DNA of 64,000 bases from positions 961,399 through 1,025,398 of the forward strand of contig JANQOQ010000008.1 in NCBI GenBank assembly GCA_028285755.1, written 5' to 3'. The notes under the pieces were generated by a model that was not told the DNA's origin, ran no database searches, and worked only from the letters and a program-made list of their open reading frames with translations. The stretch comes from Puniceicoccaceae bacterium (lineage in GTDB: Bacteria; Verrucomicrobiota; Verrucomicrobiia; Opitutales; JAFGAQ01). A program made the position numbers and the translations under genes. Positions 10,209 through 61,852 of this stretch are shown here, in pieces (the stretch's first letter is position 1; every line of letters begins with the position of its first letter).

Positions 10209-11183
10209 ATGACTTACCTATTACAGAGAGTTACACGGTTGGTTGGATGCTTCGTATTCAGCCTGATTTTTTGTAATATAGTGAGAGCAAATGAGGTTAA
10301 TTCAGAATTACCTCAATACGAGCCTGTAAGTGGGATCACTGGCAGTCTGAATTCCGTAGGATCTGATACTTTGAATAATTTAATGACTCTATGGGCGCAG
10401 GCATTTAAGAGATATTATCCGAATGTGATCATCCAGATAGAAGGCAAAGGATCCTCAACGGCACCTCCGGCATTAATTGAGGGGACGGCGCAAATAGGCC
10501 TCATGAGTAGGGATTTGAAGTCTACTGAAATCATTTCGTTTGAATCCCGCTATCAGTATAAACCCTTTAAAGTTATAGTGGCACTCGATGCATTAGCATT
10601 GTGGGTTCATAAGGATAATCCAATCGATAAGATCGATTTCTCTCAAATCGATGCAATTTTTTCAAATACTCAACGAAGGGGGGGTAAATCCGTAGAAAGA
10701 TGGGGGGAATTAGACCTAACAGGTGAATGGCAAAGCCGAAAACTGAGCCTCTACGGAAGAAACAGTGCGAGTGGTACCTATGGTTTCTTTAAATCAGTGG
10801 TTTTGCTCAATGGGGATTTTCGTGCGTCTGTAAAACAACAACCAGGATCCTCCGGAGTTGTTCAAAGCGTTGGCTCTGACCGCTATGGCATTGGTTATTC
10901 CGGCATTGGTTATTATACATCCGAAGTGAAGGCGCTGGATGTGAGCGTGGATGGAGTGAATTATTTTGCTCCCACCCGTGAAAATAGTATTTCGGGGGAT
11001 TATCCATTGGGCCGGTTCCTCTACGTATTTGTAAATCGAACACCGAATCGCCCCTTGAATCGCCTCACATCAGAGTTTATTCGCTTTGTACTTTCGCAGG
11101 AAGGTCAGCAGATAGTGCAACGAGATGGATATTTTAAATTACCCAAGTTTGTAGTGGACGATATGCTCACGAAACTTGAATAA
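10209..11183 (+). CDS. pstS: Phosphate ABC transporter substrate-binding protein PstS
   Basis: 324 residues with an N-terminal signal peptide cleaved near IVRA-NEV. The PBP fold has the phosphate-binding segments GSDTLNNL (residues about 51-58), GKGSSTAPPALI with the SST loop, MSRDLK, and GRNSASGTYGFF. These match PstS-type periplasmic phosphate receptors. It delivers phosphate to the PstCAB transporter. An ATG 4 bp upstream (10205) is in another frame, so 10209 is the start. First gene of a five-gene operon pstS-pstC-pstA-pstB-phoU; no phoBR genes are in the window. Confidence 0.95.
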   Translation: MTYLLQRVTRLVGCFVFSLIFCNIVRANEVNSELPQYEPVSGITGSLNSVGSDTLNNLMTLWAQAFKRYYPNVIIQIEGKGSSTAPPALIEGTAQIGLMSRDLKSTEIISFESRYQYKPFKVIVALDALALWVHKDNPIDKIDFSQIDAIFSNTQRRGGKSVERWGELDLTGEWQSRKLSLYGRNSASGTYGFFKSVVLLNGDFRASVKQQPGSSGVVQSVGSDRYGIGYSGIGYYTSEVKALDVSVDGVNYFAPTRENSISGDYPLGRFLYVFVNRTPNRPLNRLTSEFIRFVLSQEGQQIVQRDGYFKLPKFVVDDMLTKLE

Positions 11184-42928: not shown

Positions 42929-43861
42929 ATGATTCATTGCCCTTTTCATACACCTCAGGAGGAGATATTACAAATAGGCGGTCATGCAGTGACAGTAAGA
43001 CGCTTTACCCAGCACGAAGGTTTTTCATTTGCTAAATCCACCATACCGCCAAGCGATTCTTATGAGTTTAGCAAATCTCATTTTAGGGCTTTTTCGGTGA
43101 TCATGTATGTTAATGTCGGAACCGTCAGCTTTCACTTGCCGGACCAAGGGTATACAGATGTATCCGCAGGAGAATGGTGTCTTTTGGTGGATTTTCAAAA
43201 TCAAGCGACATTCTCTTGCAAAGATGAGGCTTCAGTGAGTTGGTTCGAGTGCGATGCCATAATATGGGAAACACTTTGGCATGATCGAATTCAGGCCCAT
43301 AGCTACCAAGCGTGTATTAATTGCATACAACGGGAAGAATCCCTTTTATTCAAAGGCCTGTTTACTTCACAGATGAGCTTATTATTGGCGAAGCTCTGGT
43401 CCAATGAGGGAATAGATCCTTCTAATCGTCTCAAAGTAGCCTCTCAAGGTTATGAGCTGTTATCGGAAACCCTGGATGCTCCGGAATTTTTGCAAAAACC
43501 CCAGGCAGAACCTTGTTTACATAATGAGGATGAGTCTGCTTTGAAGGCAGCCGCAAGCTATCTGGAAAGGAATCTGGCATACGATCATTCCATAAAGGAG
43601 TTGAGCCGCAAAGTTCACCTAAATGAATTTAAGCTGAAGAAGGGTTTTCGGGAGCATTATCAGACGACTGTCTTTGGTTACCTGCGAAAAAAACGTATGG
43701 AATACGCACGGAGCTGCTTACTGGAAAATGGGGATACTGTATTGGAAGTGGCGCATAAGGTAGGTTATTCAAATCCCAGTCACTTTAGTCGGGCCTTTAG
43801 GGAGTCATTTGGTATCAACCCAAGTGAACTCAAACGCAGAGTTGCCATTGGTTATCATTAA
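42929..43861 (+). CDS. AraC-family transcriptional regulator (PchR-like)
   Basis: 310 residues from ATG 42929; a TTG at 42893 would add a hydrophobic 12-residue stretch and is unlikely. The C-terminal 100 residues form the double HTH of AraC/XylS: LNEFKLKKGFREHYQTTVFGYLRKKRMEYARSCL and VLEVAHKVGYSNPSHFSRAFRESFGINPSELKRR. The KLKKGF recognition helix and the N-terminal sensor part resemble PchR-type regulators that respond to iron chelates. The neighbouring iron-uptake genes fit this. It is the best in-window candidate to bind the 21-bp-spaced repeats near fbpA. Confidence 0.88.
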   Translation: MIHCPFHTPQEEILQIGGHAVTVRRFTQHEGFSFAKSTIPPSDSYEFSKSHFRAFSVIMYVNVGTVSFHLPDQGYTDVSAGEWCLLVDFQNQATFSCKDEASVSWFECDAIIWETLWHDRIQAHSYQACINCIQREESLLFKGLFTSQMSLLLAKLWSNEGIDPSNRLKVASQGYELLSETLDAPEFLQKPQAEPCLHNEDESALKAAASYLERNLAYDHSIKELSRKVHLNEFKLKKGFREHYQTTVFGYLRKKRMEYARSCLLENGDTVLEVAHKVGYSNPSHFSRAFRESFGINPSELKRRVAIGYH

Positions 43862-44341: not shown

Positions 44342-46618
44342 TCAGAATGAAGCGGTCACTGAGAGAAAGCCGTTTAGGCCAGGTTGGGTATTACGGTCAG
44401 CCCCGGCTCCACCATGTCCTCCACCTCTACGTGCTGTAGACCAGAGGAAGTAGGATTCATCGGTGAGGTTGTTGATACCTCCGTTGATGCGAATATAATC
44501 GTTGAGCTGAACAAAAGCGATGATATCAAGCAGGAATACGCTATCAACCGAATCGAGTGCCCCTGCCTGGGTAGTCTGATCGATATCTTCCTCTTCCTTT
44601 TCACCAATGTAAGTACCCGTCAGGCGTGCTCCCCAGCGATCATCGGCGGAACTGTAACCGACATAGGGGACTAGTTTAATCGGGTCTACGGAATTCAAAG
44701 GCTGATCAATGTCGCTGCGCTCACCTTCCGTCCAGGATAGTGAGACTCCCGCTTCTGCTCCCTCGAAGCTCCCGCGCTCTTCACCAGCTTCCCAATCCCA
44801 GCGCACTTCGATCCCGTAGGTTTCGACTTCCTGTAGATTGACAGTAGTAAGGACATCCGGTTCCGGATTAGGATTATCGGTAACGAGCACGTTGCTTTCA
44901 AGGAAATCATCGTATTGATTCAGAAACCCTGCTATCTGGAAGGTGTTCTCCCCACCGAAGCTTTGCAGCCCGATTTCAAAGCTGTTTGACGTTTCTTCTG
45001 AAAGGTCCGGATTAGGAACAACGATAAAATCAGTTCCGTGGGTGAATACTCCGTTGAGCTCCTCAGCCGAGGGATTGCGGATGCCACGCCCATATGTAAA
45101 GTAAGTATTCAGATTATCCTTCCAGCGATACATTACCGATAGGCTGGGTGCAAATGCATCGTTTTCATATTCGACCGCACGAACGGGCTCATCCGATCCC
45201 GGGGGAACCGTGCGTGCCAGAAACGCTGCGGTATTGTCAGGGGATACCTCGTAACTATCAAATCGCAGTCCTGGGGTAATCACCCATTTTTCATCGAGAC
45301 CCAAGGTGATTTCATCCAGGATAAAGAAACCCAGGCGTGTAACTTCCGAAGGTGCCATGCCAATACGGTCGTCCAATCTTTCGCTACCATCCTGAGATAT
45401 ATCAGTCCTAATGAATTGAGACTCCACATCTGACCATGAGGCTTCAAGACCGTAGCGAAGCGTATGTGTGGCTGATTCTGCCAGTATCAGTTTATCTGCC
45501 TGGGCATCCAGCCCATAGATATCAGTTAAGTAGCTGATTTTATTGCGGCGGTTACGTGGACTTGGGAAAGGACCAAAGGAGAGGCTACCCTGTTGAATAT
45601 TAAGGCTGTTGAATTCTGATTCTTGTGTGTAAATCTGTGCACTTACGGTATCCGCAATAGGGAGTCCATCTTCAGGAGTGAATGTAGAGCTTACTGAGAA
45701 TCTTAGTCTTTCCCGTTCATCATCCTGCGAGACATTGTCATTGACGAGTAATCCACCGAAGAAACTACCCTCAGCAGCATCCCCTTCGGTGAAATTTTCA
45801 AAAGTGAAGTAATCAACTGTGCCTTCCAGTTGCCAGGCTTCTTGCTTAAACAGGACTTTTGCAAGCACTGCATGGCTGCTGAATTCCTGAGGATTAGGTT
45901 CATTGTCGCCGTTATTTTCGCGTTCAGAGCCATCACGGTAACTGTATACAACACTAGCTGCGACTTCACCATTACCCACGGCTGCTTCGAAGCGATTATT
46001 AATGCTGGAATTAATGCTCGCATAGGTCAGCGAATTGCTGAATGCAGTTCCCTCTATGTTGTCTCCCAATAGACTTTCAGGACCCGTTGTTCTTCCACTA
46101 ATAGTGCCACCCATGGCATCACTTCCATAGAGACTGGATGAGGCTGACTTGAATAACTCCAGTTGATTAAAGATGGCCGGGTCAAAATAAATACGTCCCG
46201 GACCACCTGCGCTCAGGAAAGTTTGCGCTACGAAATCCTCCGGCTGCCGGATACCATCGATCAGAATCGAAATACGGTTGGCTTCAAGTCCTCGTATATT
46301 AATGGCCTGATCACCACCGCCCAGATAGGGGATTAAGCCATCCGTGCCAGCGAAGTCAAAAGGCACGGATACGCCAGGTTCGTATTTGAGTGCTTCACCT
46401 ATACTCGTTGATCCTCGGGTAATCAAATCATCCGAAGTGACCACGGTGGTTGAGCCTGCGGTATCGAGAGCCGGTTGAGCTGAGCGGGTTGCCACTACGG
46501 TAATGGCAATATCTGCATCTGACTCTTGTCCAACGGTGTTCGAAACGATCCCGAAAACTGCGAGTAAAGTAAGCAAACGCGATAATAATGGATAGTAATT
46601 AGTATGTGTAGGTTTCAT
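44342..46618 (-). CDS. TonB-dependent outer-membrane receptor (hemoglobin/heme receptor-like)
   Basis: 758 residues with a signal peptide (to about residue 30) and a plug domain at about 45-170 (TTVVTSDDLITRGSTSIGEALKYEPGV, INIRGLEANRISILIDG). The beta-barrel ends in the canonical terminal Phe (SVTASF). A GRGIRNPSAEELNGVF...VPNPDLSEE segment resembles the NPNL-type region of heme/hemoglobin receptors. It carries iron or heme across the outer membrane using TonB energy. Divergent from exbB-exbD-tonB with shared Fur-like sites in the 272-bp gap. Confidence 0.92.
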   Translation of the reverse strand: MKPTHTNYYPLLSRLLTLLAVFGIVSNTVGQESDADIAITVVATRSAQPALDTAGSTTVVTSDDLITRGSTSIGEALKYEPGVSVPFDFAGTDGLIPYLGGGDQAINIRGLEANRISILIDGIRQPEDFVAQTFLSAGGPGRIYFDPAIFNQLELFKSASSSLYGSDAMGGTISGRTTGPESLLGDNIEGTAFSNSLTYASINSSINNRFEAAVGNGEVAASVVYSYRDGSERENNGDNEPNPQEFSSHAVLAKVLFKQEAWQLEGTVDYFTFENFTEGDAAEGSFFGGLLVNDNVSQDDERERLRFSVSSTFTPEDGLPIADTVSAQIYTQESEFNSLNIQQGSLSFGPFPSPRNRRNKISYLTDIYGLDAQADKLILAESATHTLRYGLEASWSDVESQFIRTDISQDGSERLDDRIGMAPSEVTRLGFFILDEITLGLDEKWVITPGLRFDSYEVSPDNTAAFLARTVPPGSDEPVRAVEYENDAFAPSLSVMYRWKDNLNTYFTYGRGIRNPSAEELNGVFTHGTDFIVVPNPDLSEETSNSFEIGLQSFGGENTFQIAGFLNQYDDFLESNVLVTDNPNPEPDVLTTVNLQEVETYGIEVRWDWEAGEERGSFEGAEAGVSLSWTEGERSDIDQPLNSVDPIKLVPYVGYSSADDRWGARLTGTYIGEKEEEDIDQTTQAGALDSVDSVFLLDIIAFVQLNDYIRINGGINNLTDESYFLWSTARRGGGHGGAGADRNTQPGLNGFLSVTASF

Positions 46619-48827: not shown

Positions 48828-50027
48828 TTAGTATCCGGAACTGCCATCGCCGTTATTTAGATACTTAGAAATAGTCTCTTTTATGAATGCCCTAGCAGAA
48901 TCGAAATCATAGGGTTCACCCTCATTGAGTTTTCCGGCGAATTGAAAATGGTGCTCAAACTGACTTTTGTCATCTACTTTACTGCTCAAGCTAAAACGAT
49001 CATGCTCTGCATAAACGCCGTTCCATGCAGTGCGAACAGCTTCCCAGTATGGGTGGGTTTTCTCCCAGTATTCATCAGCTTTTGCAAGGCTTGGGCTGGT
49101 GATGCGTTCATAGCGATTAATACCGATTTCCTGAGCCAAAAATTCTGCGGTATCTGAATTCTCACCCGCAACTCGCTTCCAGCTATTTTGCTCATGCAAC
49201 CAGCCTTTGGGGGTGATACTGATACGGTGGTATCCATCCATCACGTTGTAGTCATCGCGTATACTATACTCACGTCGTGGCAGGGGACGCCAAAAGCTCT
49301 CACTGGTCCAGATCGAACGATTGCCTGAATGATCCCACTTTCCTAACACTTCATATCGGGGAGAATCATCTACTTGCCAAACGGATTGCGACCAACTTTC
49401 CTTTACATCATCAGCAGAGCGAGTGTCCCGTGCCCAGGTATTATCACCCCGGTAAGTATGCAGATCGGTATCTTCGTAAGTCCAGTCCTGCCGCCAGTGC
49501 TTAACCAGAAAAGGTCCTGACATTTCTCCGTTATCATCTTCAAAGTACATGACCAGGATATGTTGAAGACTGATAAAGTCTCCAGTGTCCTCAAGCAGGA
49601 ATACTTTTTCGGTTGCCCAAGAGTGATAGGAGCGTTCTGGTTCATGATCAGGCAAAAGACCTAGGGCTTCCATGAAGTGGAAACTCACCTTGTAATCGCC
49701 CTGTAATGAGAGGATAGCCGCACGATCCTTTTCATATGCGCTTCCGGCGCTTGCAATTGTATCAAGTGGCAAACGATTTGCGTCTGCGTAAGTCACCGGA
49801 GTACCTCGGGTACTTCCCCCGCGAGGACTTGCGACTTCATCAGATAAATTACCCCAGCCAAACACGTAGCGTTCTGTGGAGGCTGCTGCAGCAGTTTCTT
49901 CACCGACTGGTGTTGCTGATTCAGCAACCGGTTCTGAATCATCAGTCAGGCAGCCTGAGTTCAACAACAGGCTGAGAATTGCCATCGTCAGTAGGCTATA
50001 GTTCGTTAATTTTGAATTTATTTTCAT
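48828..50027 (-). CDS. DUF6607 family lipoprotein
   Basis: 399 residues. A type II signal peptide with lipobox LLNSGC (Cys26) points to a membrane-anchored lipoprotein. The central part matches the DUF6607 pattern I recall: DYKVSFHFMEALG, LQHILVMYF, VKHWRQDWTYEDTDLHTYRGDNTW, QVDDSPRYEV.GKW.H and PLPRREYS.R.DYNVMDGYHRI. Members often lie near TonB receptors. Function is unknown. Here it sits between tonB and an iron transporter, which suggests a role in heme or iron acquisition. Probably co-transcribed with the upstream 279-residue gene (63-bp gap). Confidence 0.8.
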   Translation of the reverse strand: MKINSKLTNYSLLTMAILSLLLNSGCLTDDSEPVAESATPVGEETAAAASTERYVFGWGNLSDEVASPRGGSTRGTPVTYADANRLPLDTIASAGSAYEKDRAAILSLQGDYKVSFHFMEALGLLPDHEPERSYHSWATEKVFLLEDTGDFISLQHILVMYFEDDNGEMSGPFLVKHWRQDWTYEDTDLHTYRGDNTWARDTRSADDVKESWSQSVWQVDDSPRYEVLGKWDHSGNRSIWTSESFWRPLPRREYSIRDDYNVMDGYHRISITPKGWLHEQNSWKRVAGENSDTAEFLAQEIGINRYERITSPSLAKADEYWEKTHPYWEAVRTAWNGVYAEHDRFSLSSKVDDKSQFEHHFQFAGKLNEGEPYDFDSARAFIKETISKYLNNGDGSSGY

Positions 50028-50090: not shown

Positions 50091-50930
50091 TCACTCGGGA
50101 AATAAGAGGGGTTTGATATCTTCATAATCGCAGAGTGCCTGGATTTTCAGAAGTTGAATGCTGTCGCTTCCGCTTAAGTAAAACGTAGGATATAGGGCTT
50201 CCTGGTCGCAATAGACGTCGTGGATTGCAGGGATGTAGAGCTGAAGATTTACGTCATGACCCGCTACGGTGAGTGAACCTTCATTCAATCGGATGCCGAG
50301 CGGTGTAATTGCTTCCTGATGAAGTATGCCCGAGCTGAATAAAGAAACTTCAAAAGCAATGCTTCGCTCGCGTGCTTCTTTAAATAGTCTAACAATAGAG
50401 CTAGGCTTAAGCGGCGTGTATTCAACCTCTTCCGGGATAATCGGATAGCTGATCCATTCGTTTGCTGGAGTATGGTAAGATGCATCTGCACACTTAACCA
50501 AAACTTTGCCCCATTCAATAAGGGGAAGCGTTGACAATGCACTTATCTGCATCACTTCAATGCCATAAGGATTGAGAAACACTATTTTTCCCGGGGAGCC
50601 GCAACACTTGCACACGGACACATGCCCCTGAGCCTGAAATCGGTTACCCTCATGAATGGATAAGCGATTGTATGCATCCGAAATGATTTCGCCTGCCTGT
50701 ATTTTTGAGAGCCTTAACGGGCTTGTTTTACTAATCAGCCTTGCGTAGGCATGTTTAGTTTGCAGGTGATAACCTTCCAGGTTTGTAAGGCGGTTAAAGA
50801 TTTCAAGAGCTCTTGAATCAAGCGATACCCAGCCTGCTTCATTAGTTTGCAAAAATAAAGAATCTACGGAGCACGTTGATATGCTATTGCTTTGCTGTAT
50901 ATGAGGAGGATAGGATTTTAATCGGTTCAT
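50091..50930 (-). CDS. Unknown protein of the iron region, CxxC-containing
   Basis: 279 residues, no signal peptide and no membrane helix, so probably cytoplasmic. The notable element is VSVCKCCGSPGKIVFLNPYGIEVMQIS at about 105-131, with CKCC able to bind a metal or heme. The layout is faintly like one half of HemS/ChuX heme-handling proteins, but I cannot support that by a motif. It is followed by the DUF6607 gene. Upstream are two direct repeats identical in spacing to those before fbpA, so it is probably under the same control. Confidence 0.65.
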   Translation of the reverse strand: MNRLKSYPPHIQQSNSISTCSVDSLFLQTNEAGWVSLDSRALEIFNRLTNLEGYHLQTKHAYARLISKTSPLRLSKIQAGEIISDAYNRLSIHEGNRFQAQGHVSVCKCCGSPGKIVFLNPYGIEVMQISALSTLPLIEWGKVLVKCADASYHTPANEWISYPIIPEEVEYTPLKPSSIVRLFKEARERSIAFEVSLFSSGILHQEAITPLGIRLNEGSLTVAGHDVNLQLYIPAIHDVYCDQEALYPTFYLSGSDSIQLLKIQALCDYEDIKPLLFPE

Positions 50931-50976
50931 GCGTATCAGTAATCTGATTTTACAGGATTTTCTAAGTTTTCAGCCA

Positions 50977-51011
50977 CTCTCAGAGGGATTATGCCGGCTC
51001 CCTAAGGGATT
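50977..51011 (-). promoter_or_regulatory. Paired direct-repeat operator upstream of the 279-residue gene
   Basis: On the plus strand CTCTCAGAGGGATT (50977-50990) and CTCCCTAAGGGATT (50998-51011) are direct repeats with their GGGATT cores exactly 21 bp apart. The nearest copy is 46 bp before the start codon. The same pair in the same spacing recurs upstream of fbpA (54728-54762). Confidence 0.65.
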
Positions 51012-51043
51012 TTTTGTGATTTTTGGACAATTTTTAGGAGCAC

Positions 51044-52015
51044 TCATTTCAAACTGATCCATACATTCATGCCTTCATGAATGGGCTCGCTATCATAATA
51101 GAGCAGCCATTCGTCTGCATTCAGGGTGAACGCGGGCTTTTTCGGAGAAACTAAAACCTCTTGATGCTTCCCAGTATTGTGTATCCGTGAGACTCTGCAC
51201 TCGATCGCCCCAGCGGTAGATTCTGTGTTTATTTGCAACTGTTCGGGCCGGTAATATTGGACTGAATGGCCATTGATCTGGATCGGGTTGGCAGGTCCAA
51301 AAAGGTTGGCGCAATAAATGTTTTGGGGATGTCGGTAAACTTCTGAAGGAGTGCCGATTTGCTCAAGTTGCCCTTGCTTTAATATGGCAATTTTTGTTGC
51401 AACGGAGAGCGAATCAGCTGGATCGTGAGTCACCAGGATTGCGGTCGTTTTGAGCTCATGGAGTAATTCGCGAATCTCTTCGCGCATTGTCCTTCGCAGT
51501 GCAGGGTCGAGGTTGCCAAAAGGTTCATCCAGTAGCAGCACTCTGGGCTTTGGAGCGAGGGCACGGATAATAGCAAGCCTCTGGCGCTCTCCGCCGGAAA
51601 GCTCATGGGGGTAGCGTTTCTCTTTTCCAGCAAGGCCAACCATATTGAGTAACTGGGTGGAAATGGACTGTTTATCTTTTGTGCTTTTGCGGTGCAGTCC
51701 ATAAATGAGGTTCGCCTGAACCGTTAAATGGGGAAAAAGTGCACCCTCCTGAAACACCAACCCGATGCCTCGTTTTTCCGGAGGCAGCCAGATACGGGGT
51801 CCCGCAATGGGTTGATCTCCCAGGTAAATCTCACCCTGGTCAGGTATTTCAAGGCCTGCAGCCAGACGAAGCAGAGTGCTTTTGCCACTACCACTTTCGC
51901 CTACAAGTGCCAATATTTCACCCTCATTGAGTTTCAAGCTAACCTCATTTACAGCTGCTAGCTTCGATGAAGGATAGGATTTGCTTATGTTGCGAAATTC
52001 CAGGGAAATGCTCAT
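51044..52015 (-). CDS. fbpC: Ferric-iron ABC transporter ATP-binding protein
   Basis: 323 residues. Walker A GESGSGKST, signature LSGGERQRLAIIRAL and Walker B VLLLDEPFGNLDP are intact. The C-terminal 90 residues form the regulatory extension of the FbpC/PotA type. It energises the FbpB permease. Overlaps fbpB by 4 bp. Last gene of fbpA-fbpB-fbpC. Confidence 0.92.
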   Translation of the reverse strand: MSISLEFRNISKSYPSSKLAAVNEVSLKLNEGEILALVGESGSGKSTLLRLAAGLEIPDQGEIYLGDQPIAGPRIWLPPEKRGIGLVFQEGALFPHLTVQANLIYGLHRKSTKDKQSISTQLLNMVGLAGKEKRYPHELSGGERQRLAIIRALAPKPRVLLLDEPFGNLDPALRRTMREEIRELLHELKTTAILVTHDPADSLSVATKIAILKQGQLEQIGTPSEVYRHPQNIYCANLFGPANPIQINGHSVQYYRPEQLQINTESTAGAIECRVSRIHNTGKHQEVLVSPKKPAFTLNADEWLLYYDSEPIHEGMNVWISLK

Positions 52016-53646
52016 CGGTTTTCAGGGAGTAGCAGACGGTTAATCAATATAAGACCCAAAGCGCCTACCACCAGGATGATCAACGAGGGAAGTGCACACT
52101 CATGAATACGCCCTTCCATAGCTATCTGGAATGCCGTAGTCGCCATCGTTTCAAAATTGGCAGGACGCAAAATCATGGTCAGCGGTAGTTCCTTAAGTAT
52201 GTCTATAAATACGAGCGTGAACGCTGCCCAAAGCGTACCGCGTAGTAAGGGTATATTGATGTGCCATAGGGTGGCGGCGCGTCCGCGCCCCAAAGATATC
52301 GAAGCTTCATCCAAAGAACCACATACCCGGGTCATTCCGCTTTTCAGGGGATGTAGGGCGACTGCAAGAAAGCGAATACAATAAGCAAAACCAATAGCAA
52401 AAAGGGTACCACTCAATAGAGGAAACCATGCGTTTTCTGGCGAAGCACTAATTAGCCTATCCAGCGTGCCGAAAGAAACAAGTATACCTAATGCAACTAC
52501 CGCCCCAGGCGCCGCATAGCCTAATAGTGCAAGGCCATTGATCCCCCGTAACCAACGGGTGGAATGAATTTTGGCCGCGTAGGCCATGACTAACGCGATA
52601 GCAGTTAATGTTACCGCCGTGAGGCCAGCCATGCTCAGGGTATTTATGAGATGACCTAAAAAGGCAGTATCGAAGACTCGTGACCACGTACGATAAGCCC
52701 ATATCAACAATTGGCCCGCAGGAAAGAGAAATCCCAGAGACAGAGGTACCAAACACAAAACACATGCGAAAATACCGTTTATTCTTGAGAGCCTGCGAAC
52801 CGGGAGAGTCGATGATCGATTGCCAGTTTCAGCAAAGCGGGCTTTGCCACGCAGATACTGTTCGATCATCAGTATCAGGAAAATGGCCAGCATAACAAAA
52901 GCTGCGATTCTGAGCGCGGACGCACGATCCCCCTGTCCAAACCAGGTGCGGAAAATACCCTCGGTAACGGTGGGCACCCCGAAAAAGTGTACTGCTCCAT
53001 AATCATTAATGACTTCCATGATTACGAGGCTGGCCCCCGCTATAAGCATGGGCCGGGCCATCGGCAATGCGACTGTAAAAAAGACAGACCTATGTCCGCG
53101 CCCCAATGTTTGGGCAGCCTCTAGGACTTGCTGGCGTTGCTGGGAAAACGAAGCACGCGCGCTAATATAGATGTAAGGATACAATACGGAAGCCATCAGT
53201 AAGCACAATATACCGTAACGCAGGATGGATTCTGCTGCACGAAAAGCATCCACGCCCCATATTTTTCGGATCTCAATAAGCAGCGGGATTGCGGCTTCTG
53301 TCGCCTGAAAATAGACAAAAGCCCCGACATAGGTCGGAATGGCCAGCGGCAGGATGAGTGCCCACTGAAATAAATCCCGGCCTGGAAAAGTGTAATTACT
53401 GACCAGCCAGGCAGTCGGTATGCCCAGCAAAGCTGCCAGCGCCGTAACCAGTATTACAACAATAACCGTATTGGATACATAGGTGCCCAATACAGTCGAT
53501 ACCAGATGATCCCATTGCGGACCTTCACCCGCCAGGCCCAGGACTACTGCGAATAAAGGAATGAGCAGCAACAATGCAAGGAGTAGAGCGCTGCCCGACC
53601 ACAGATCCAAATCCCTTTTTAGATACCTGTAAACAGTCGCGATCAA
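52012..53646 (-). CDS. fbpB: Ferric-iron ABC transporter permease (fused two-domain FbpB)
   Basis: 544 residues with about 12 membrane helices, the internally duplicated FbpB form. Each half has a permease coupling loop: AAQTLGRGHRSVFFTVALPMARPML in the first, and DEASISLGRGRAATLWHINIPLLRGTLW in the second. It is 6 bp after fbpA and overlaps fbpC. Confidence 0.92.
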   Translation of the reverse strand: MIATVYRYLKRDLDLWSGSALLLALLLLIPLFAVVLGLAGEGPQWDHLVSTVLGTYVSNTVIVVILVTALAALLGIPTAWLVSNYTFPGRDLFQWALILPLAIPTYVGAFVYFQATEAAIPLLIEIRKIWGVDAFRAAESILRYGILCLLMASVLYPYIYISARASFSQQRQQVLEAAQTLGRGHRSVFFTVALPMARPMLIAGASLVIMEVINDYGAVHFFGVPTVTEGIFRTWFGQGDRASALRIAAFVMLAIFLILMIEQYLRGKARFAETGNRSSTLPVRRLSRINGIFACVLCLVPLSLGFLFPAGQLLIWAYRTWSRVFDTAFLGHLINTLSMAGLTAVTLTAIALVMAYAAKIHSTRWLRGINGLALLGYAAPGAVVALGILVSFGTLDRLISASPENAWFPLLSGTLFAIGFAYCIRFLAVALHPLKSGMTRVCGSLDEASISLGRGRAATLWHINIPLLRGTLWAAFTLVFIDILKELPLTMILRPANFETMATTAFQIAMEGRIHECALPSLIILVVGALGLILINRLLLPENR

Positions 53647-53652
53647 TCCAGA

Positions 53653-54669
53653 CTATCGCCAATCGGACTCATTGAATACGCGAATGGCCGCTTCGTTGAG
53701 ATCACCCAATACTCCGAGGTAAAGTGGATCTACCTTAAACTCACCCCAGGACTTTTGAAGCTCTGACCACTCTACACCCTTCGCAACCGGATATTCATGA
53801 GTAGCTGCCGGGAAAGTGGCTTGGGCCCCATCGGAGATTAGAAATTCAAGGAATTTTACGGCATTTTCTTTGTTCTTTGAGGATTTGGTAATCCCTGCAC
53901 CGCTTACATTGACATGGGTGCCACGCCTCTCCTGATTCGGAAAAAAGATGGCTAAAGATTCTCCCACACTGCGGTCTTTGGGATCCGTGGAATTTAAAAG
54001 CAACCCGAGATAATAAGTGTTCACGATCGCAACATCTCCGAGCCCTGCTGCGACTGCACGCATTTGATCCCGGTCACTGCCCTGAGGTGGACGCGCCATA
54101 TTATCGCTGATTGCATTGGCCCAATCACGTGCTCCAATAACTCCATGCTCTGCTATAATGGAGGCCATGAGGGACTGGTTGTATATGTTCGAAGATGAAC
54201 GGACCAGAATACGTCCACGCCATTCAGCGTTGGCGAGTGCTTCATAGCTTTCCAATTCATCCGCGCTAACACGTTCTTTCGCGTAAGCCAATATGCGGGC
54301 TCGCATTGAAAAGCCGAACCAATGCCCCTCGGGATCGCGGAAGGAAACTGGAATGCGCTGCTTGAGCAAATCAGAGTCTAATGGTTGCAGCAGTCCAGCC
54401 GTTTTGGCACGTTCCAGACGTCCGGCATCGACAGTCATAAACATATCTGCTGGAGAGTTATCGCCTTCGGCACTCAACCGCTCAATGAGCTCGTCCGCCC
54501 CCGCCTGAACGACATTTACCTTGATGCCCGTTTTTTCTGTAAATTGAGCGATCAATGCTTTATCAGAATCGTAGTGACGCTGAGTGTAGAGCGTAATTTC
54601 GTTAGCATTAGCAAAACTCCCGATCAAGAGTGAAAAAGAAAAAAATAATACTATTAACTGCCTTATCAT
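53653..54669 (-). CDS. fbpA: Ferric-iron ABC transporter substrate-binding protein
   Basis: 338 residues with a signal peptide (cleavage near ANA-NEIT). The family pattern ITLYTQRHYDSDKALIAQFTEKTGIKVNVVQ and the late double Tyr in NTYYLGLLL match Fe3+-binding FbpA-type proteins; the Tyr pair binds iron. It delivers periplasmic Fe3+ to FbpBC. Upstream are a Fur-like site and the paired 21-bp-spaced repeats. Confidence 0.93.
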   Translation of the reverse strand: MIRQLIVLFFSFSLLIGSFANANEITLYTQRHYDSDKALIAQFTEKTGIKVNVVQAGADELIERLSAEGDNSPADMFMTVDAGRLERAKTAGLLQPLDSDLLKQRIPVSFRDPEGHWFGFSMRARILAYAKERVSADELESYEALANAEWRGRILVRSSSNIYNQSLMASIIAEHGVIGARDWANAISDNMARPPQGSDRDQMRAVAAGLGDVAIVNTYYLGLLLNSTDPKDRSVGESLAIFFPNQERRGTHVNVSGAGITKSSKNKENAVKFLEFLISDGAQATFPAATHEYPVAKGVEWSELQKSWGEFKVDPLYLGVLGDLNEAAIRVFNESDWR

Positions 54670-54710
54670 ATTTGTAGTGGTTTGAATGATTTACCACCAC
54701 CTTATTAATA

Positions 54711-54727
54711 TTGAGACTCTTTTTCAA
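54711..54727 (-). promoter_or_regulatory. Putative Fur-type operator upstream of fbpA
   Basis: On the minus strand TTGAAAAAGAGTCTCAA resembles the motif of the TonB receptor and exbB promoters (TTGAAAATGAGACTGAG) and is itself a partial palindrome (TTGA...TCAA). It lies 41 bp before fbpA, next to the paired repeats. Confidence 0.45.
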
Positions 54728-54762
54728 CTCCATGAGGGATTTTAGAAACCCCTAGCGGGATT
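54728..54762 (-). promoter_or_regulatory. Paired direct-repeat operator upstream of fbpA
   Basis: On the plus strand CTCCATGAGGGATT (54728-54741) and CCCCTAGCGGGATT (54749-54762) repeat with their GGGATT cores 21 bp apart. Spacing, orientation relative to the gene and core are the same as at 50977-51011. The nearest copy is 58 bp before the fbpA start. Confidence 0.65.
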
Positions 54763-54937: not shown

Positions 54938-56353
54938 ATGGTATCTGTTCTCAAAAATAGTATTATCCGAGTATATGTAGGTTTTTGGTTATTACACCTC
55001 ATTTTTCGAACGTTTGGTTCTGCAGAACTATTACCCAATATCGTTTTTATAATGGCGGACGATTTGGGTTATGGAGATGTGGGTTTCAACGGACAGGATA
55101 AAATAAAAACTCCATATTTGGATAAAATGGCGGAAGAAGGTATGGTATTTACCCAGCACTATTCAGGGTCCACGGTATGCATGCCATCGCGATGTGCCTT
55201 ACTTACCGGTAGGCACATGGGTAGAGCAACGATTCGGGGTAATCCGCGCTGGACAGCTACTGGGGTTGCGATAGATCTTGGATCAGAGGATGTGACTATT
55301 GCCGATGAGTTAGATCGTGCGGGTTACTTTTCGGGCATTATTGGAAAATGGGGTCTCGCCGAAGCCAGTGATACAGGTATGCCGCTCGAGCAGGGTTTTG
55401 ACTATTTCTTCGGGTATCGCAAGCATCGGGACGCTCACCACTATTACTGGCCTGACCTTTGGGAAAACTCAGAGCCCTTTCACTTGGAAGGAAACGATTA
55501 CTACAACAAAAAGGGAATCTATACCCATGATCTTTTTGAAGAAAAGGCCATCGATTTTATTTCAAATCAGAAAGAGCGACCTTTCTTTCTCTATCTGGCG
55601 CTGACAATCCCTCATTATGAGTTAACAGTGCCTGAAGAAGAAAAGGAGATGTATGCAGAATTAGGCTGGCCAGAACGCCCCATGAAAGCTGCACATTATC
55701 GTCACGATCCTGAAGGGAATGTAAGCTACGCTGCTATGGTTACTCGGATGGATCGAAGTATCGGCAATATCCTTAAACACTTGGATGGATTGGGAATTGC
55801 TGAGAATACCCTCATTATTTTTACATCCGACAATGGCCCAGAGTATGAGAAACAAGATCGCTTTTTCAATAGCAATGGGAATTTACGAGGTGGTAAACGA
55901 GATTTGTATGAAGGCGGTATTCGGGTGCCGTTTGTAGCCTATTGGCCTAGCAAGATCAAAGCAGCTAAGCGAAGTGATCACGTTTCAGCTTTTGATGATG
56001 TTTTACCCACTTTCTGTGAGCTTGCTGGAATAGAACCAAGTTCGGAGATAACGGGTATTTCGTTTTTGCCCACGCTAATGGGAGATTCTAAAAATCAGGA
56101 ACTGCGTGAATATTTGTATTGGGAGTTTAATGAGAGGCAGGGTCCGATTCAGGCGATCCGCATGGGTCAGTGGAAAGGTGTGCGTTTTGCAGGAAAACCT
56201 CTTGAACTCTATAACTTAGAACAAGATGTTTCAGAAACTAATGATGTTTCTGACGATTATCCCTACGTGGTTGCTCAAATATTGAAAAAAATGAATATCG
56301 CCCGAAGCGAAGATCCAAACTTTACACTTACTAAAAGAGAGATTTCGAGATGA
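54938..56353 (+). CDS. Sulfatase (S1 family, arylsulfatase type)
   Basis: 471 residues. An N-terminal signal peptide is followed by NIVFIMADDLGYGDVG (metal DD pair at 41-42), the formylglycine motif CMPSR with Cys81, LTGRHMGR, GKWGL, and FTSDNGPE. The Cys must be oxidised by a formylglycine-generating enzyme, not present in the window. It removes sulfate esters from a substrate in the periplasm or outside. It overlaps the next sulfatase by 4 bp and lies beside a hybrid regulator and a TonB receptor, which points to a sulfated polysaccharide. Confidence 0.95.
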   Translation: MVSVLKNSIIRVYVGFWLLHLIFRTFGSAELLPNIVFIMADDLGYGDVGFNGQDKIKTPYLDKMAEEGMVFTQHYSGSTVCMPSRCALLTGRHMGRATIRGNPRWTATGVAIDLGSEDVTIADELDRAGYFSGIIGKWGLAEASDTGMPLEQGFDYFFGYRKHRDAHHYYWPDLWENSEPFHLEGNDYYNKKGIYTHDLFEEKAIDFISNQKERPFFLYLALTIPHYELTVPEEEKEMYAELGWPERPMKAAHYRHDPEGNVSYAAMVTRMDRSIGNILKHLDGLGIAENTLIIFTSDNGPEYEKQDRFFNSNGNLRGGKRDLYEGGIRVPFVAYWPSKIKAAKRSDHVSAFDDVLPTFCELAGIEPSSEITGISFLPTLMGDSKNQELREYLYWEFNERQGPIQAIRMGQWKGVRFAGKPLELYNLEQDVSETNDVSDDYPYVVAQILKKMNIARSEDPNFTLTKREISR

Positions 56354-57903
56354 GAGTTCGAATATCAGCACTAATTAAAGCATTCATATTAGGTTTGCTC
56401 AGCTATGATGGTTTATCGGCAAAACAACCCAATATCATCGTCATTATGGCGGATGATCTGGGTTACGCGGATATGAGCTTTCTTGTGCATGCACCTGCTG
56501 ATGTGCAAACACCGGGTATCGATCAGTTAGCCGCAGAGGGTTTTTATTTTACGAATGCCTATTCCACTTCGCCTATATGCAGTCCCTCTCGAGTGGGGTT
56601 TATGACCGGTCGGTATCAGCAGCGTTGGGGTAATTATTGGTATGGGGAAGGTGGGTTGCCTTGGGATGAAAAAACGATCGCTCAATATTTGAAGGAGCTG
56701 GGCTATTACACTATGAAAATCGGCAAGGTACATACAAACAGAGGTCCGGCTGAACATCCGTTAGATCATGGCTTTGATGAGTTTTTAGGCTTTATTCATC
56801 ATACTCATGATTTTACTCGATTGAGCCATAGAGATGTCGAAGCCTACGAAGAGCGCCTAAAAGGGAGTGCTCGATCAGCAACTATCGGACCATTAATCCG
56901 AGGACGTGATGAGTCAGCATCCTATGAAAAAGGGTTTACGACGCGTATTTTCACTGAAGAGGCGGTTGATTACATTAATCGTGAGCATAGCCAGCCTTTC
57001 TATCTCCAGCTCGAGCATAATGCTGTGCATATGCCTACGTACGTTACAGATCCGTACTACGATCAAAAAGTGGGATTGGGGCACAGTCCATGGAATCGTG
57101 ATGCAGAGGATTGGCATTTTCCATACTGGGACCCTGCTAAGGAGACTTGGCAGCAATGGCATAGTAAATGGGGCCATCTTGGTGCAGTAGATACTCTTGG
57201 TCGTAAGCGCTACCTCTCTCACTTGGCAGCATTGGATGATAGTGTATCTGCCATCTTGCGCGCTCTTGCAGAGAAAGGGATAGAAGATAAGACAATACTC
57301 GTGTTCCTGTCTGATAATGGAGGTACGATCAATACATATTCGAATAATTACCCTCTGAGCGGCTATAAGTTTATGTTTGGAGAGGGAGGTATTCGTATAC
57401 CGATTATTATCAAGATACCTGAGGCAGAAGCTGTTGGTCGTTCATTTTCTCAGCTGGCGTCTGCTATGGATATATTGCCGACACTGGTGCAACTCGCGGG
57501 TGGAGAAATCGCGGATAATCTGGATGGAAAGAGTTTATTGCCATTGATAGAGGGTAAAGAGCCGGTAAACCACAAGCAGCTGTTTTGGGATAAGGGCCGG
57601 GATGATAGCTGGGTGGTGCGTAAAGGAGACTGGAAGCTAGCTCATAAGGCTGGTTGGATACATTTAAACTATGCACTTGATGTAGAAGGTATAGCTAAGC
57701 GTGCGCCAGACTATGCTTACCCTGATGGCATTCTTCTATTCAACCTTGAGCATGATATTGCTGAACAAGAAAACCTCTTTGATATACACCCCGAGAAGGT
57801 GAAAGAATTAACAAAAGCTTATCAGACTTGGCGAAAGCAAATGTCCAGACCACTCGGTAGGAGTGAATTACCTCAATTTACAAGCGATATCACTTTGGAA
57901 TAA
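56350..57903 (+). CDS. Sulfatase (S1 family), second copy
   Basis: 517 residues, a different subtype from the preceding one. Signal peptide, NIIVIMADDLGYADMS (DD at 35-36), CSPSR with Cys77, MTGRYQQRWG, and LSDNGG near residue 320. Its start codon overlaps the stop of the first sulfatase (ATGA), so the two are translationally coupled and likely act on the same glycan in sequence. It ends 7 bp before the convergent hybrid regulator. Confidence 0.95.
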   Translation: MRVRISALIKAFILGLLSYDGLSAKQPNIIVIMADDLGYADMSFLVHAPADVQTPGIDQLAAEGFYFTNAYSTSPICSPSRVGFMTGRYQQRWGNYWYGEGGLPWDEKTIAQYLKELGYYTMKIGKVHTNRGPAEHPLDHGFDEFLGFIHHTHDFTRLSHRDVEAYEERLKGSARSATIGPLIRGRDESASYEKGFTTRIFTEEAVDYINREHSQPFYLQLEHNAVHMPTYVTDPYYDQKVGLGHSPWNRDAEDWHFPYWDPAKETWQQWHSKWGHLGAVDTLGRKRYLSHLAALDDSVSAILRALAEKGIEDKTILVFLSDNGGTINTYSNNYPLSGYKFMFGEGGIRIPIIIKIPEAEAVGRSFSQLASAMDILPTLVQLAGGEIADNLDGKSLLPLIEGKEPVNHKQLFWDKGRDDSWVVRKGDWKLAHKAGWIHLNYALDVEGIAKRAPDYAYPDGILLFNLEHDIAEQENLFDIHPEKVKELTKAYQTWRKQMSRPLGRSELPQFTSDITLE

Positions 57904-57910
57904 CGTTCTT

Positions 57911-60900
57911 TCATGAAGTCGTGGTGCCTTCCCTGAATTCTGTGGGAGTGACTCCGTATTCGTTTTTGAAGCACGTGCCAAAATAACTGACTTCGTTAAA
58001 ACCGACCGAGAAGGAAATCTCTGAAATCGTTAACTCTGTATGTATAAGCATTTCTTTTGCACGTTTAAGTCTTACGTTCCGTATGAAAACGCGTGGTGCA
58101 CTTCCCGTGGTAGCTTTGATCTTTCGATAGAGTGTCATACGACTCATGTTCAAATCTTTTGCCAAGTGTACTACATCATAATCTATGTTATCAATTTGAG
58201 CATCGACGGATTCCACCGCTTTTACAATAAAGGATCCTGTTATTTTATCATAAACGGGCGGCTTGGAAGTCTTTTGTAAGGTGTCAAACTGTTCCTGGAA
58301 ATACCCCCAAAGTGCTTTTTGCGCGTTCAGCAAATTATTTATTTTTCGAATAAGCAGCTGAGTGTTTACCGGTTTGGTAATATAATCATCAGCTCCCGAA
58401 TCTAGACCCTCGAGCTCATGAGATTCGGATTTTAATGCGGTCAATATGATAACAGGTATATGGCTCGTATCTACCTCTCGCTTGAGTTTGCGGGTTAGTT
58501 CCAAGCCACCCATTTCGGGCATGCGAATATCGCTTATAATCACATTGGGAATGGTTGCTTGTGCACACTTCCAGCCAGATTTGCCATTATCAGCTGAATG
58601 AATGATGTAGTGCTCGGAAAGTTCGTTTGTCAGGTATTGGCGGATATCGGAGTTATCTTCGACTATTAGGACAGAGACTTCCTCCTCAGAAATGGTCTTT
58701 GATGAGCTGGTTAGATTACTCTTAGGTTGAATTTTCCTATTTTCAGCTTTGTTTTCTTTTACTGCCTCTGTTGGTATCAATACATTAAAGCGAGAACCTG
58801 GGTAGTCGGCGTGATTTCTCACTGGGCTTTCAAGTTCTATTTTACCGCGCATTGAATGGATGATACTCTGAGTGAGAGCAAGCCCCAAACCTGTACCGTT
58901 TGTGTTATCTGAAGAATTATGCCTGATGCGGTAAAAGGGATCGAATATCCTCTTGGCTTTTTCTTTGGTGATACCCAGACCTTGATCCTCCACCATAATC
59001 AGTATTGAATTCTCATCGTCGCGTTGAATGAGCTCGAGTTTGATCTTTATGATGCTATTTCTCGGAGAGTATTTGATAGCATTAACCAGAAGATTATCAA
59101 AAACTTTTTGCAGATTTGCCTCATCATATCTTACATAATTCAACATGCTGTCGCTCATAAAGCGGATTTCCTGGTTTTTTTGATCTGCAAGTGGTCGATC
59201 AGAATCAATGAGCTGCTGAATAAAGGTGTTTAGGTTAGCAGCCTTATATTCAATCAGTAGCTTTCCAGCTTGCACCTGTCGGAAGTCCAGAATCTCATCC
59301 ACAAGGTGCTTCATTTTTTCTGCATTACGATAGGCAAGTTCTATATTCTGCTTTTCTTGGGGTTGTTTACTTTTCTCCAGTAGGCTTCTAAGAGGTCCAA
59401 GAATTACCATTAGGGGGGTTCGAAGCTCGTGGGAAATGTTGGTGAAAAACTGAAGCTTGAGGGTTTCCAACTCCAGAATATGGCGGATGCGCATTCTCAT
59501 AATCCAATAACCCATTGCAGTAATTGTAAGGAAAATGGTTGCCATACTTACAATGAACCAGGGGCGCTTCCACAAATATGGAATAATGGTAAATTCTGCA
59601 ATTGCGTATTCTACACTCTCATTGCCGGCAAGATCACGGGCTTTGATCGAAAGCTGATATTTGCCGGGTGTTAGAGCAGGCAGTAGCACCTCTGTAGCGG
59701 TCGAGTAGAGAGACCAGTCTTGCTGGTTAAGGCGATAGGCGTACTCCAATTTTGATTGAGGTGTTTTAGACCAGAGATCTTTGCCTGACCATTGGAAATA
59801 CACATTTCCAGGTTCCTGAATTTGTTCCTCATAGCTTGAAAGTTGGACGATGGGGGCGTCCGAATCGGGAATATAATGCGTCGTTCGAATGTTGTGTTTA
59901 ACGGGTTTTGTATGCAAACCTTCTGAATCTCTAAAGTACCACTCTCTCGAAGCCTGATTGATCCAAAGATCATTAGTTTGCGAAACTTTTATTTCCCCAG
60001 ATTCACGGTTCATGCGAATATGGTTATTGATTGGATTGGATGACCAGGATTCGCCATCGAATCGGTAAATACCACTATCCGTACCGGCTAGGATATGCCC
60101 CTGTTGTGTAGGGTCTATGGTAAGGCAAACAACGTAATTAGAGCTTAGGCCAGAATTCTGATTGTTATGGAGAGTCCAATTACCGTCTTGATAACGGTAT
60201 ACACCAATACCCCACTGAGCGACCCATAGGGTATCTTCGGCATCTGCAAGGATATACTCAGTCCATTGGCTTTCAAACGCGCTCACATATTTTACATCAG
60301 ATGATTCGACCTGTTGAGTTCGATTTAGAGACGGTCCACCAAACCACAGATACCCCCCCGCTTTTTCAATGCCAACGATTCGATTAGGGAAATTCTTGCC
60401 ATATATATGTTTGATAGCGTATCCATCTCTACGTGGTGTAAATGCAACAATACCCCCATTGCTCGTACCGAGTTCCTGAGGTGGGTCCCCGCAACCAAAG
60501 AGTATAGTACCATTTTCGTCCTCCCATACTGATAAATAGCTGATCCGGCGACCTAATTGTGGAAAGGTGTGCCTGTACCATTGTGCTCCATCAAAATAGC
60601 AGATAGTTGCATGGTCTTGATGGCTGCCTGCGATCCACAGGTAATCGTTTTGTGAAGTATGTATGACTCCCGGATATTCGATCTTCGGATATTTAAGCTT
60701 TTTCCAGCTACCAGTGTTATCTCGAAAAATTATGTCATTTGAATCGGATATAAACCAATCGATTTTATTCGCATCCGTACTTTGGTAGATTAATCCCGGA
60801 TAAGTAATCCATGGAGTATTGTGTGTTCCTATCTCAAAGACACTTTGTCTGCGACCGCCTAAAATGATGGCACCGGAGTTTCGTTTGAAAGCAAATGGAT

Positions 60901-61852
60901 AGGTATTTGGGATTTTGTATTCAGGAAATTCGAGAACTTGCCAATTAGATCCATTACGATAAACCAAAGCACGGTTCAACAAAACGAGAAGCTGTTCCTC
61001 ATCTCCATGTAGTATAGATACTGGAGGATTATTTGAACCTGTTAATCCTACTAAATTTATGGATTTCCAAATATTCTCATCAGCAATGTATTGATGCAAT
61101 TGTCCATCCGGAACGATTTTCAAGCAGTATACATCCCCGGAATCCACCTCAAACAATAAAGGCTGATAATTTTGATGAAGGCCTCCAAGAATGTATGATT
61201 CCAACTGATTCTCAAGGGGAACATTTAGTCCATCCAGAAAGCCTTTGAATATACGACCACTTTTCGAATCGCTGAACCATAATTGATTGCTCTTATCTAG
61301 CAACAAACTCGATATCCAATAATTTGAGTAGTGGGTTCCGACGACTTTATGATTAACCACTTTTAGTAGTCCTTTGGAAGTTCCAATGAGAAGTGTGTCC
61401 GGGCTGAGTTTTACGAATTTGTTTCCATAATTATTTGTGGAATGCTCCGCTTCCGAAATAATTTTCCAGCCATCTTGAGTATATAGGTAGACCCCGCTGG
61501 AAGTATGAATATAGACGACATTATCCGAGAATGCTTTTACAGATTTCGGGAATGACTCCTTCCAATTCTCAGGATAAGGGTGCTTTTCTATGCTCAAGCC
61601 ATCATAGCGAATGAGCCCGTTCATATTCGCAAACCACAGTGATTGATCGGGTGCTTCATCACCGCATATGACAATCTGGTTTTCGAGAGCGTCCAATAAG
61701 TGCCAGTTTGCCAAATTTGTGAAATTTGCAGGATTTTGAGGAACGAAAACTTCATATTCAAAAGAGCTGCTCTCGACGAGAGACACGAAGCAACCTGCAC
61801 ACATTGCCATGGTGCCTGTGGTTCGTAACAGATAGTCTCTAAGGCTGCTCAT
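57911..61852 (-). CDS. Hybrid two-component system protein (sensor kinase/response regulator/AraC)
   Basis: 1313 residues, all parts of a two-component system in one chain. A signal sequence is followed by a periplasmic beta-propeller made of about 14 short repeats (about 40-650, LWF/LWV...G.Y.Y.. units) and a Y_Y_Y domain (about 697-757). One membrane helix spans about 765-785. The histidine kinase has NISHELRTPL (His808), N-box NLLVNAIKYS and GTGLGLAL. The receiver has phospho-acceptor Asp1108 (VIISDIRMPEMGG) and Lys1160. An AraC-type HTH covers about 1215-1305. This is the HTCS design known from Bacteroides, where the periplasmic part binds oligosaccharides and switches on a polysaccharide locus. 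Neighbours (two sulfatases, a TonB receptor) fit. Confidence 0.95.
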   Translation of the reverse strand: MSSLRDYLLRTTGTMAMCAGCFVSLVESSSFEYEVFVPQNPANFTNLANWHLLDALENQIVICGDEAPDQSLWFANMNGLIRYDGLSIEKHPYPENWKESFPKSVKAFSDNVVYIHTSSGVYLYTQDGWKIISEAEHSTNNYGNKFVKLSPDTLLIGTSKGLLKVVNHKVVGTHYSNYWISSLLLDKSNQLWFSDSKSGRIFKGFLDGLNVPLENQLESYILGGLHQNYQPLLFEVDSGDVYCLKIVPDGQLHQYIADENIWKSINLVGLTGSNNPPVSILHGDEEQLLVLLNRALVYRNGSNWQVLEFPEYKIPNTYPFAFKRNSGAIILGGRRQSVFEIGTHNTPWITYPGLIYQSTDANKIDWFISDSNDIIFRDNTGSWKKLKYPKIEYPGVIHTSQNDYLWIAGSHQDHATICYFDGAQWYRHTFPQLGRRISYLSVWEDENGTILFGCGDPPQELGTSNGGIVAFTPRRDGYAIKHIYGKNFPNRIVGIEKAGGYLWFGGPSLNRTQQVESSDVKYVSAFESQWTEYILADAEDTLWVAQWGIGVYRYQDGNWTLHNNQNSGLSSNYVVCLTIDPTQQGHILAGTDSGIYRFDGESWSSNPINNHIRMNRESGEIKVSQTNDLWINQASREWYFRDSEGLHTKPVKHNIRTTHYIPDSDAPIVQLSSYEEQIQEPGNVYFQWSGKDLWSKTPQSKLEYAYRLNQQDWSLYSTATEVLLPALTPGKYQLSIKARDLAGNESVEYAIAEFTIIPYLWKRPWFIVSMATIFLTITAMGYWIMRMRIRHILELETLKLQFFTNISHELRTPLMVILGPLRSLLEKSKQPQEKQNIELAYRNAEKMKHLVDEILDFRQVQAGKLLIEYKAANLNTFIQQLIDSDRPLADQKNQEIRFMSDSMLNYVRYDEANLQKVFDNLLVNAIKYSPRNSIIKIKLELIQRDDENSILIMVEDQGLGITKEKAKRIFDPFYRIRHNSSDNTNGTGLGLALTQSIIHSMRGKIELESPVRNHADYPGSRFNVLIPTEAVKENKAENRKIQPKSNLTSSSKTISEEEVSVLIVEDNSDIRQYLTNELSEHYIIHSADNGKSGWKCAQATIPNVIISDIRMPEMGGLELTRKLKREVDTSHIPVIILTALKSESHELEGLDSGADDYITKPVNTQLLIRKINNLLNAQKALWGYFQEQFDTLQKTSKPPVYDKITGSFIVKAVESVDAQIDNIDYDVVHLAKDLNMSRMTLYRKIKATTGSAPRVFIRNVRLKRAKEMLIHTELTISEISFSVGFNEVSYFGTCFKNEYGVTPTEFREGTTTS

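Follow-up and report, generated by a model that had tools for sequence, protein, structure and literature searches.

AraC-family proteins are established class II activators, and at the araBAD promoter AraC binds the half-sites I1 and I2, which form a 21-base-pair (bp) direct repeat with the proximal half-site at -35. A tandem element of the same 21-bp geometry, with its proximal unit at the predicted -35 place but with another recognition sequence and an iron-related regulon, is described here from 64,000 nucleotides of a Puniceicoccaceae bacterium (contig JANQOQ010000008.1; the whole stretch is called the window), where it precedes the ferric iron transport genes fbpABC and a gene for a 279-residue protein. 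In iron acquisition, an established circuit is that of PchR, a member of the AraC/XylS family, and Fur in Pseudomonas aeruginosa (PMC8477383). As in that circuit, an AraC-type regulator of iron-chelate uptake appears to be tied to TonB receptor genes, and an additional layer of Fur repression would act at the same promoters. Unlike the case of PchR, the operator is shared by several unlinked operons in two relatives of the bacterium (G339 and G243), and the loci read showed no genes for siderophore biosynthesis. The operator sequence, ATCCS-N4-GGRGY twice at 21 bp, was worked out solely from sites in these bacteria, independently of the PchR box. A literature search yielded no such operator described for this bacterial group, for which a precise operator sequence and an iron-uptake regulon are now supplied; the regulon is new, while its kind, control by a PchR-like AraC protein and Fur, is already known.

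The paired element and its genomic distribution

The 14-mer CYCYN4GGGATT begins at positions 50977, 50998, 54728 and 54749 of the plus strand, its sole matches in the window when both strands are searched. The arrangement put forward in a preliminary description of this DNA, two pairs with their GGGATT cores exactly 21 bp apart and in the same orientation, is borne out in both cases. Since the downstream genes lie on the minus strand, the elements are more clearly read there, each unit being ATCC(C/G)-N4-GG(A/G)G(T/C), i.e. ATCCS-N4-GGRGY, and each pair a direct repeat of a pseudo-palindrome. The fbpA pair (54727-54761) reads ATCCCGCTAGGGGT-ttctaaa-ATCCCTCATGGAGT and lies 57 bp ahead of the start codon, and that of the 279-residue gene (50976-51010) reads ATCCCTTAGGGAGC-cggcata-ATCCCTCTGAGAGT and lies 45 bp ahead; the 46-58 bp given earlier were close, and the coding-strand definition of the element corrects them to these values.

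The genome to which the window belongs (G000, 4.25 Mb) was scanned by pattern searches and on sequence stretches. GGGATTN15GGGATT has four matches, namely the two pairs, a tRNA-like sequence (TTCGAACCCC) and C13:62002, and the full 35-mer with up to three mismatches has additional matches at chance level only. In fact, the genome-wide pattern searches gave no convincing pair beyond the two of the window, and the paired 14-mer, for which such a scan had been proposed, is not spread over non-iron loci. A third match to the coding-strand pattern, C15:485560, was rejected, being inside a coding frame, and a widespread repeat family is ruled out by the whole-genome pattern counts. When a scoring matrix was built from the relatives' sites alone, the window sites being excluded, the two pairs reached 23.7 and 23.4 bits and the runner-up position in the window 9.4, the maximum on 8 Mb of Markov-simulated sequence being about 18.0 bits. 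Judged from the sequence, the pairs are almost certainly operators, that is, regulatory sites acting at the DNA level.

Recurrence in related genomes

Orthologues of fbpA were gathered from the order and the class; the relatives found in the contig database belonged to distant phyla only and were left out of the footprinting. The orthologue of highest identity (68%, in G243) keeps the tandem at exactly 21 bp, ATCCTTTATGGAGT-catttta-AACCCCTGAGGGGT, which is the conservation at orthologues that had been named as support for the proposal. The same tandem occurs in other families of the order. Genomes of family f10, which encode a divergent AraC homologue adjoining fbpC, carry a drifted tandem at the fbpA promoter; their sites and those of G014 are weaker and were counted as drifted versions only.

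The distribution of the operator was compared with that of the AraC-family regulator encoded in the iron region of the window. A search with this protein gave G243 (47%) and G339 (40%) as the closest homologues and weaker ones in G014, f10, G035, G499, G434 and G257, while none was found at the search threshold in G030, G043, G025, G057, G071, G309, G093 and others. With the coding-strand consensus and up to two mismatches, three matches were counted in the window genome, four in G243 and eight in G339. Genomes lacking the AraC homologue gave none (G030, G043, G025, G309, G093) or one each (G071, G057, G537), counts at chance level only. This consensus superseded earlier generic relaxed patterns, which had returned chance counts over 14 genomes.

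The non-coding sites in the two genomes with the closest AraC homologues stand largely at iron-uptake genes and, in all cases with an evident target, are oriented to face it. In G339, one lies ahead of a TonB receptor followed by fbpABC; two divergent ones lie between araC/ferritin and a TonB receptor, ahead of genes for a 55-residue cysteine-rich and a 94-residue protein; another precedes a short receptor-like open reading frame, a PepSY-like gene and a DUF6607-like gene; and further sites are found at a TonB receptor with a PepSY-like gene, at another TonB receptor and on a different contig. In G243, a site immediately behind araC precedes a TonB receptor, with a homologue of the 279-residue protein downstream, and others stand at an exbB/exbD/tonB-like operon, at a DUF6607-like gene directly behind a tandem of its own and, divergently, at a TonB receptor followed by an ApbE-like gene. 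Several of these names were given by sequence resemblance; Pfam searches bore out the identity of the AraC proteins and of the receptor that precedes fbpABC in G339. Since the tandem recurs before iron-uptake genes where an AraC protein of the same type is present, it is very probably the iron-acquisition switch of this type of regulator. The earlier proposal of an iron regulon including the 279-residue gene and DUF6607 is supported by the recurrence of the tandem at iron and TonB genes and at DUF6607 in relatives.

The AraC-type regulator

The regulator carries a C-terminal double helix-turn-helix (HTH_18, expectation value E 5e-22; HTH_AraC over cut-off in Pfam) and a cupin-like N-terminal sensing domain, which is predicted to be strand-rich and for which Foldseek matches CuxR, BgaR and ToxT. 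Its aligned identity to the closest homologues in G243 and G339 is 45% and 38%, the segments LNEFKLK(K/R)GFR and Y(S/A)NPSHF of the helix-turn-helices being conserved in them. In the window, G243 and G339, araC is linked to TonB receptor or iron uptake genes; moreover, a homologue on a cyanobacterial plasmid adjoins a TonB receptor and an iron-siderophore binding protein. No curated NCBIfam equivalog covers the protein, the matches being far under cut-off (e.g. RhrA, E 2e-9), and, because no PchR model was among the matches listed, it is named PchR-like and not PchR.

Promoter geometry and proposed mechanism

A -10-like hexamer, TAnnnT, starts 22-23 bp past the proximal unit in 11 of the 15 sites from the window, G243 and G339 (12 with one base of slack), an agreement reached at any offset by none of 5000 shuffled sets. 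If this hexamer is the -10 element, the end of the proximal unit falls at about -35. Among units scoring at least 9/10 in the loci of G000, G243 and G339, 14 of the 23 same-strand pairs within 200 bp are spaced 21 bp, and apart from these no spacing falls below 46 bp; half of the 14 come from loci fetched without the 21-bp pattern (two in the window, two in L192, one in L199 and two in L236). Two direct-repeat units two helical turns apart point to the gene, and the proximal one abuts or overlaps the -35 predicted from the hexamer, as expected of an AraC class II operator. The 21-bp direct repeat, the constant orientation and the -10 position together make class II activation by an AraC-type protein a fitting account.

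In the mechanism proposed, each 14-bp unit would accommodate a single AraC DNA-binding domain, with one helix-turn-helix on ATCC and the other, roughly one turn away, on GGRG, and a dimer would occupy both units of the direct repeat on one helix face. With the proximal unit ending at the -35 place, the liganded protein would activate in the class II manner and substitute for the -35 element. The signal would be an imported iron chelate (siderophore or haem-derived) or iron status, the targets switched on in the window being fbpABC and the operon of the HemS-like 279-residue protein and DUF6607, and Fur would provide a second, repressing input through a box covering the fbpA promoter. That the regulator encoded at 42929 binds the pairs is highly probable; the scheme as a whole, in which it is a class II activator with either of the two signals and Fur represses at fbpA, is quite probable, and activation from these particular sites is likely. 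For an imported iron chelate as the effector the chances are about even.

Fur-like boxes

The preliminary description had read the element without the Fur-like palindrome beside the fbpA pair, which is now identified. The corresponding copy ahead of fbpA in G030, TTGAGACTCTGTCTCAA, matches the consensus at 17/17 positions, being itself the source of that consensus, and closely similar palindromes stand ahead of fbpA in G257, G071, G043, G014 and G025. Many fbpA orthologues have the palindrome and lack the tandem, and the window fbpA has both. From this comparison of fbpA promoters a near-complementary pattern emerges, with the Fur-like box where a close AraC homologue is missing and the tandem where it is present. 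The occurrence of fbpABC behind Fur-like boxes in some genomes, behind the AraC operator in others and behind both here renders a regulatory switch testable. The palindromes are regarded as putative Fur boxes on account of their type, their iron-gene context and the four Fur-family proteins encoded in the window genome, and their sequence may represent the Fur box of this bacterial group.

Alternative explanations

Several observations weigh against the scheme. The TonB receptor and exbB-tonB genes of the window have Fur-like boxes instead of the tandem, though araC adjoins the receptor. In G499 and G434, which encode distant homologues of the AraC protein (24% and 19% aligned identity), no comparable operators occur. 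In G243, an orphan tandem after fbpC (L192 12922-12956) is followed by no gene and lacks a -10-like hexamer at the offset seen elsewhere, and the match C18:22126 has no evident target. Furthermore, the whole-genome comparison depends on the two relatives with strong operators, and some sites were gathered by the 21-bp pattern, the spacing statistic being unbiased for the fbp and araC loci only. The orphan tandem occupies the spot where the window genome has the hemS-like gene, which in G243 adjoins araC, and it may have been left behind when that gene moved.

As for the regulator itself, it is unlikely, yet deserves consideration, that the AraC protein binds the tandem but chiefly represses, or that it senses iron or haem directly and not an imported chelate. 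PchR represses when unliganded (PMC8477383); nevertheless, a proximal unit at -35 suits class II activation. The cysteines C129, C132 and C196 (ACxxCxQR, EPC) are common to the three AraC proteins with strong operators and missing in the other aligned homologues, a confinement which leaves room for direct metal or haem sensing, with these residues as possible metal or haem ligands. A stronger version, in which the AraC protein is a multi-operon iron regulator that has displaced Fur at iron-uptake promoters in some members of the order and senses iron, an Fe-S cluster or haem through the cysteines instead of a ferric siderophore, would be rather improbable.

It is similarly improbable that the tandem is bound by another regulator. 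The hybrid two-component protein at 57911-61852 has an AraC-type helix-turn-helix and lies close to the fbpA pair, but in G243 and G339 the sites are found at iron genes and beside the homologue of the 42929 araC, not at sulfatases. A Fur-family protein could be considered, four being encoded in the genome, yet the Fur-like boxes differ in sequence and occur at fbpA in genomes without the tandem. A DtxR protein is suggested by a drifted pair ahead of a DtxR-type gene in G014, whereas no DtxR homologue was found in the window genome at the threshold used. That the repeats act within the 5' leaders as RNA, in the form of an attenuator or a riboswitch, is very doubtful: the units are pseudo-palindromic and the repeats could pair mutually, but the stems would be only 3-5 bp, the region has no Rfam match, and, going by the 21-bp spacing together with the fixed distance to the downstream hexamer, the probable start of transcription lies downstream of the units. 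Finally, chance repeats or local duplication of one promoter region, brought to mind by the mere two pairs 3.7 kb apart in the genome, can hardly be credited given the dissimilar flanks, the matrix scores far above simulated sequence and the tandem in other families.

Target genes and neighbours

The features are collected in Table 1. In phmmer comparisons of FbpA with solved iron-binding proteins, the best chain gave E 2e-108 and an "iron transport protein" E 5e-102. The 279-residue protein, formerly of unknown type, can now be described further: it has no match in Pfam or NCBIfam, including the HemS/ChuS family models, but its AlphaFold model (predicted local distance difference test score 72, from a 5-sequence alignment) ranks HemS, PhuS and ChuS at places 1-9 of 350,542 PDB chains in Foldseek (E 1e-12 to 1e-11), so that a HemS/ChuS fold is predicted. 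It resembles these haem chaperones and haem-degrading proteins in predicted fold over most of the chain (Foldseek probability 1.00) and in its haem and iron gene neighbours, and differs in its about 9% identity, its length (279 against about 330-345 residues) and its being below Pfam detection; haem binding is putative. A relative in G051 stands beside a haem-type ATP-binding cassette cluster with a pyridoxamine-oxidase-like gene, an AraC gene and NDH-2, and one in G014 beside NDH-2 and TonB genes, these neighbour functions being assigned by reading the sequence. The DUF6607 gene, on which a literature search found nothing, probably forms one operon with it, and both uncharacterised genes can be assigned to iron/haem acquisition. 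The window TonB receptor matches TIGR01786 (E 3e-95) and TIGR01785 (E 2e-93), both just under cut-off. With FbpA, the HemS-like fold and the haem-type receptor, the unit is best read as one for haem and ferric iron acquisition.

Table 1. Features of the window, and loci of one protein family in relatives
Feature	Position	Strand	Basis or remark
AraC-family regulator, PchR-like, likely operator binder	42929..43861	+	HTH_18; homologues accompany operator; predicted cupin and AraC DNA-binding-domain fold
TonB-dependent receptor, haem/haemoglobin type	44342..46618	-	TIGR01786, TIGR01785; no tandem operator
Fur-like box TTAAGTCTCATTCTCAA	46643..46659		upstream of TonB receptor
Fur-like box ATGAGACTGAGTTGCAA	46866..46882		upstream of exbB
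DUF6607 lipoprotein-like gene	48828..50027	-	PF20311
279-residue HemS/ChuS/PhuS-like protein (predicted fold)	50091..50930	-	AlphaFold model and Foldseek
-10-like hexamer TAAAAT (hemS-like gene)	50947..50952	-	23 bp past proximal unit
Proximal operator unit of hemS-like gene, ATCCCTCTGAGAGT	50976..50989	-	21 bp from distal unit
Distal operator unit of hemS-like gene, ATCCCTTAGGGAGC	50997..51010	-	
FbpC-type ATPase	51044..52015	-	ABC_tran
FbpB-type fused permease	52012..53646	-	BPD_transp_1; orthologues adjoin fbpA
FbpA/FutA-type periplasmic ferric iron binding protein	53653..54669	-	phmmer, Pfam SBP
-10-like hexamer TAAGGT (fbpA)	54699..54704	-	22 bp past proximal unit
Fur-like palindrome TTGAGACTCTTTTTCAA	54711..54727		between operator and -10-like hexamer of fbpA; 15/17 match to relatives' box
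Proximal operator unit of fbpA, ATCCCTCATGGAGT	54727..54740	-	21 bp from distal unit
Distal operator unit of fbpA, ATCCCGCTAGGGGT	54748..54761	-	
Loci of the 94-110-residue family	L236 about 11320-11610; L235 12476 on; L195 7177 on		

Next to the iron region (54938-61852), two sulfatases and then the hybrid two-component regulator with an AraC-type helix-turn-helix form an adjoining polysaccharide-type locus. In the relatives, proteins of a 94-110-residue family (...AC/SxxACFCP...) precede the hemS-like gene in G243 and G051 and stand behind a tandem site in G339, where the gene of the 55-residue cysteine-rich protein (RYICCKCARV...KLCKPEKMC; L236 about 10970-11136, minus strand) also lies directly behind a tandem site. 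In two f10 genomes fbpA is broken over two or three frames (G258, L244 8412-9423; G282, contig C132), which may be due to assembly errors or reflect pseudogenes. A cluster in G014 (L189 5630-9228) encodes a 294-residue protein, a flavodoxin, a DtxR-FeoA-type regulator and DUF3793, with a ferredoxin-like frame nearby; it carries drifted tandem sites and Fur-like boxes and resembles an iron regulon of its own.

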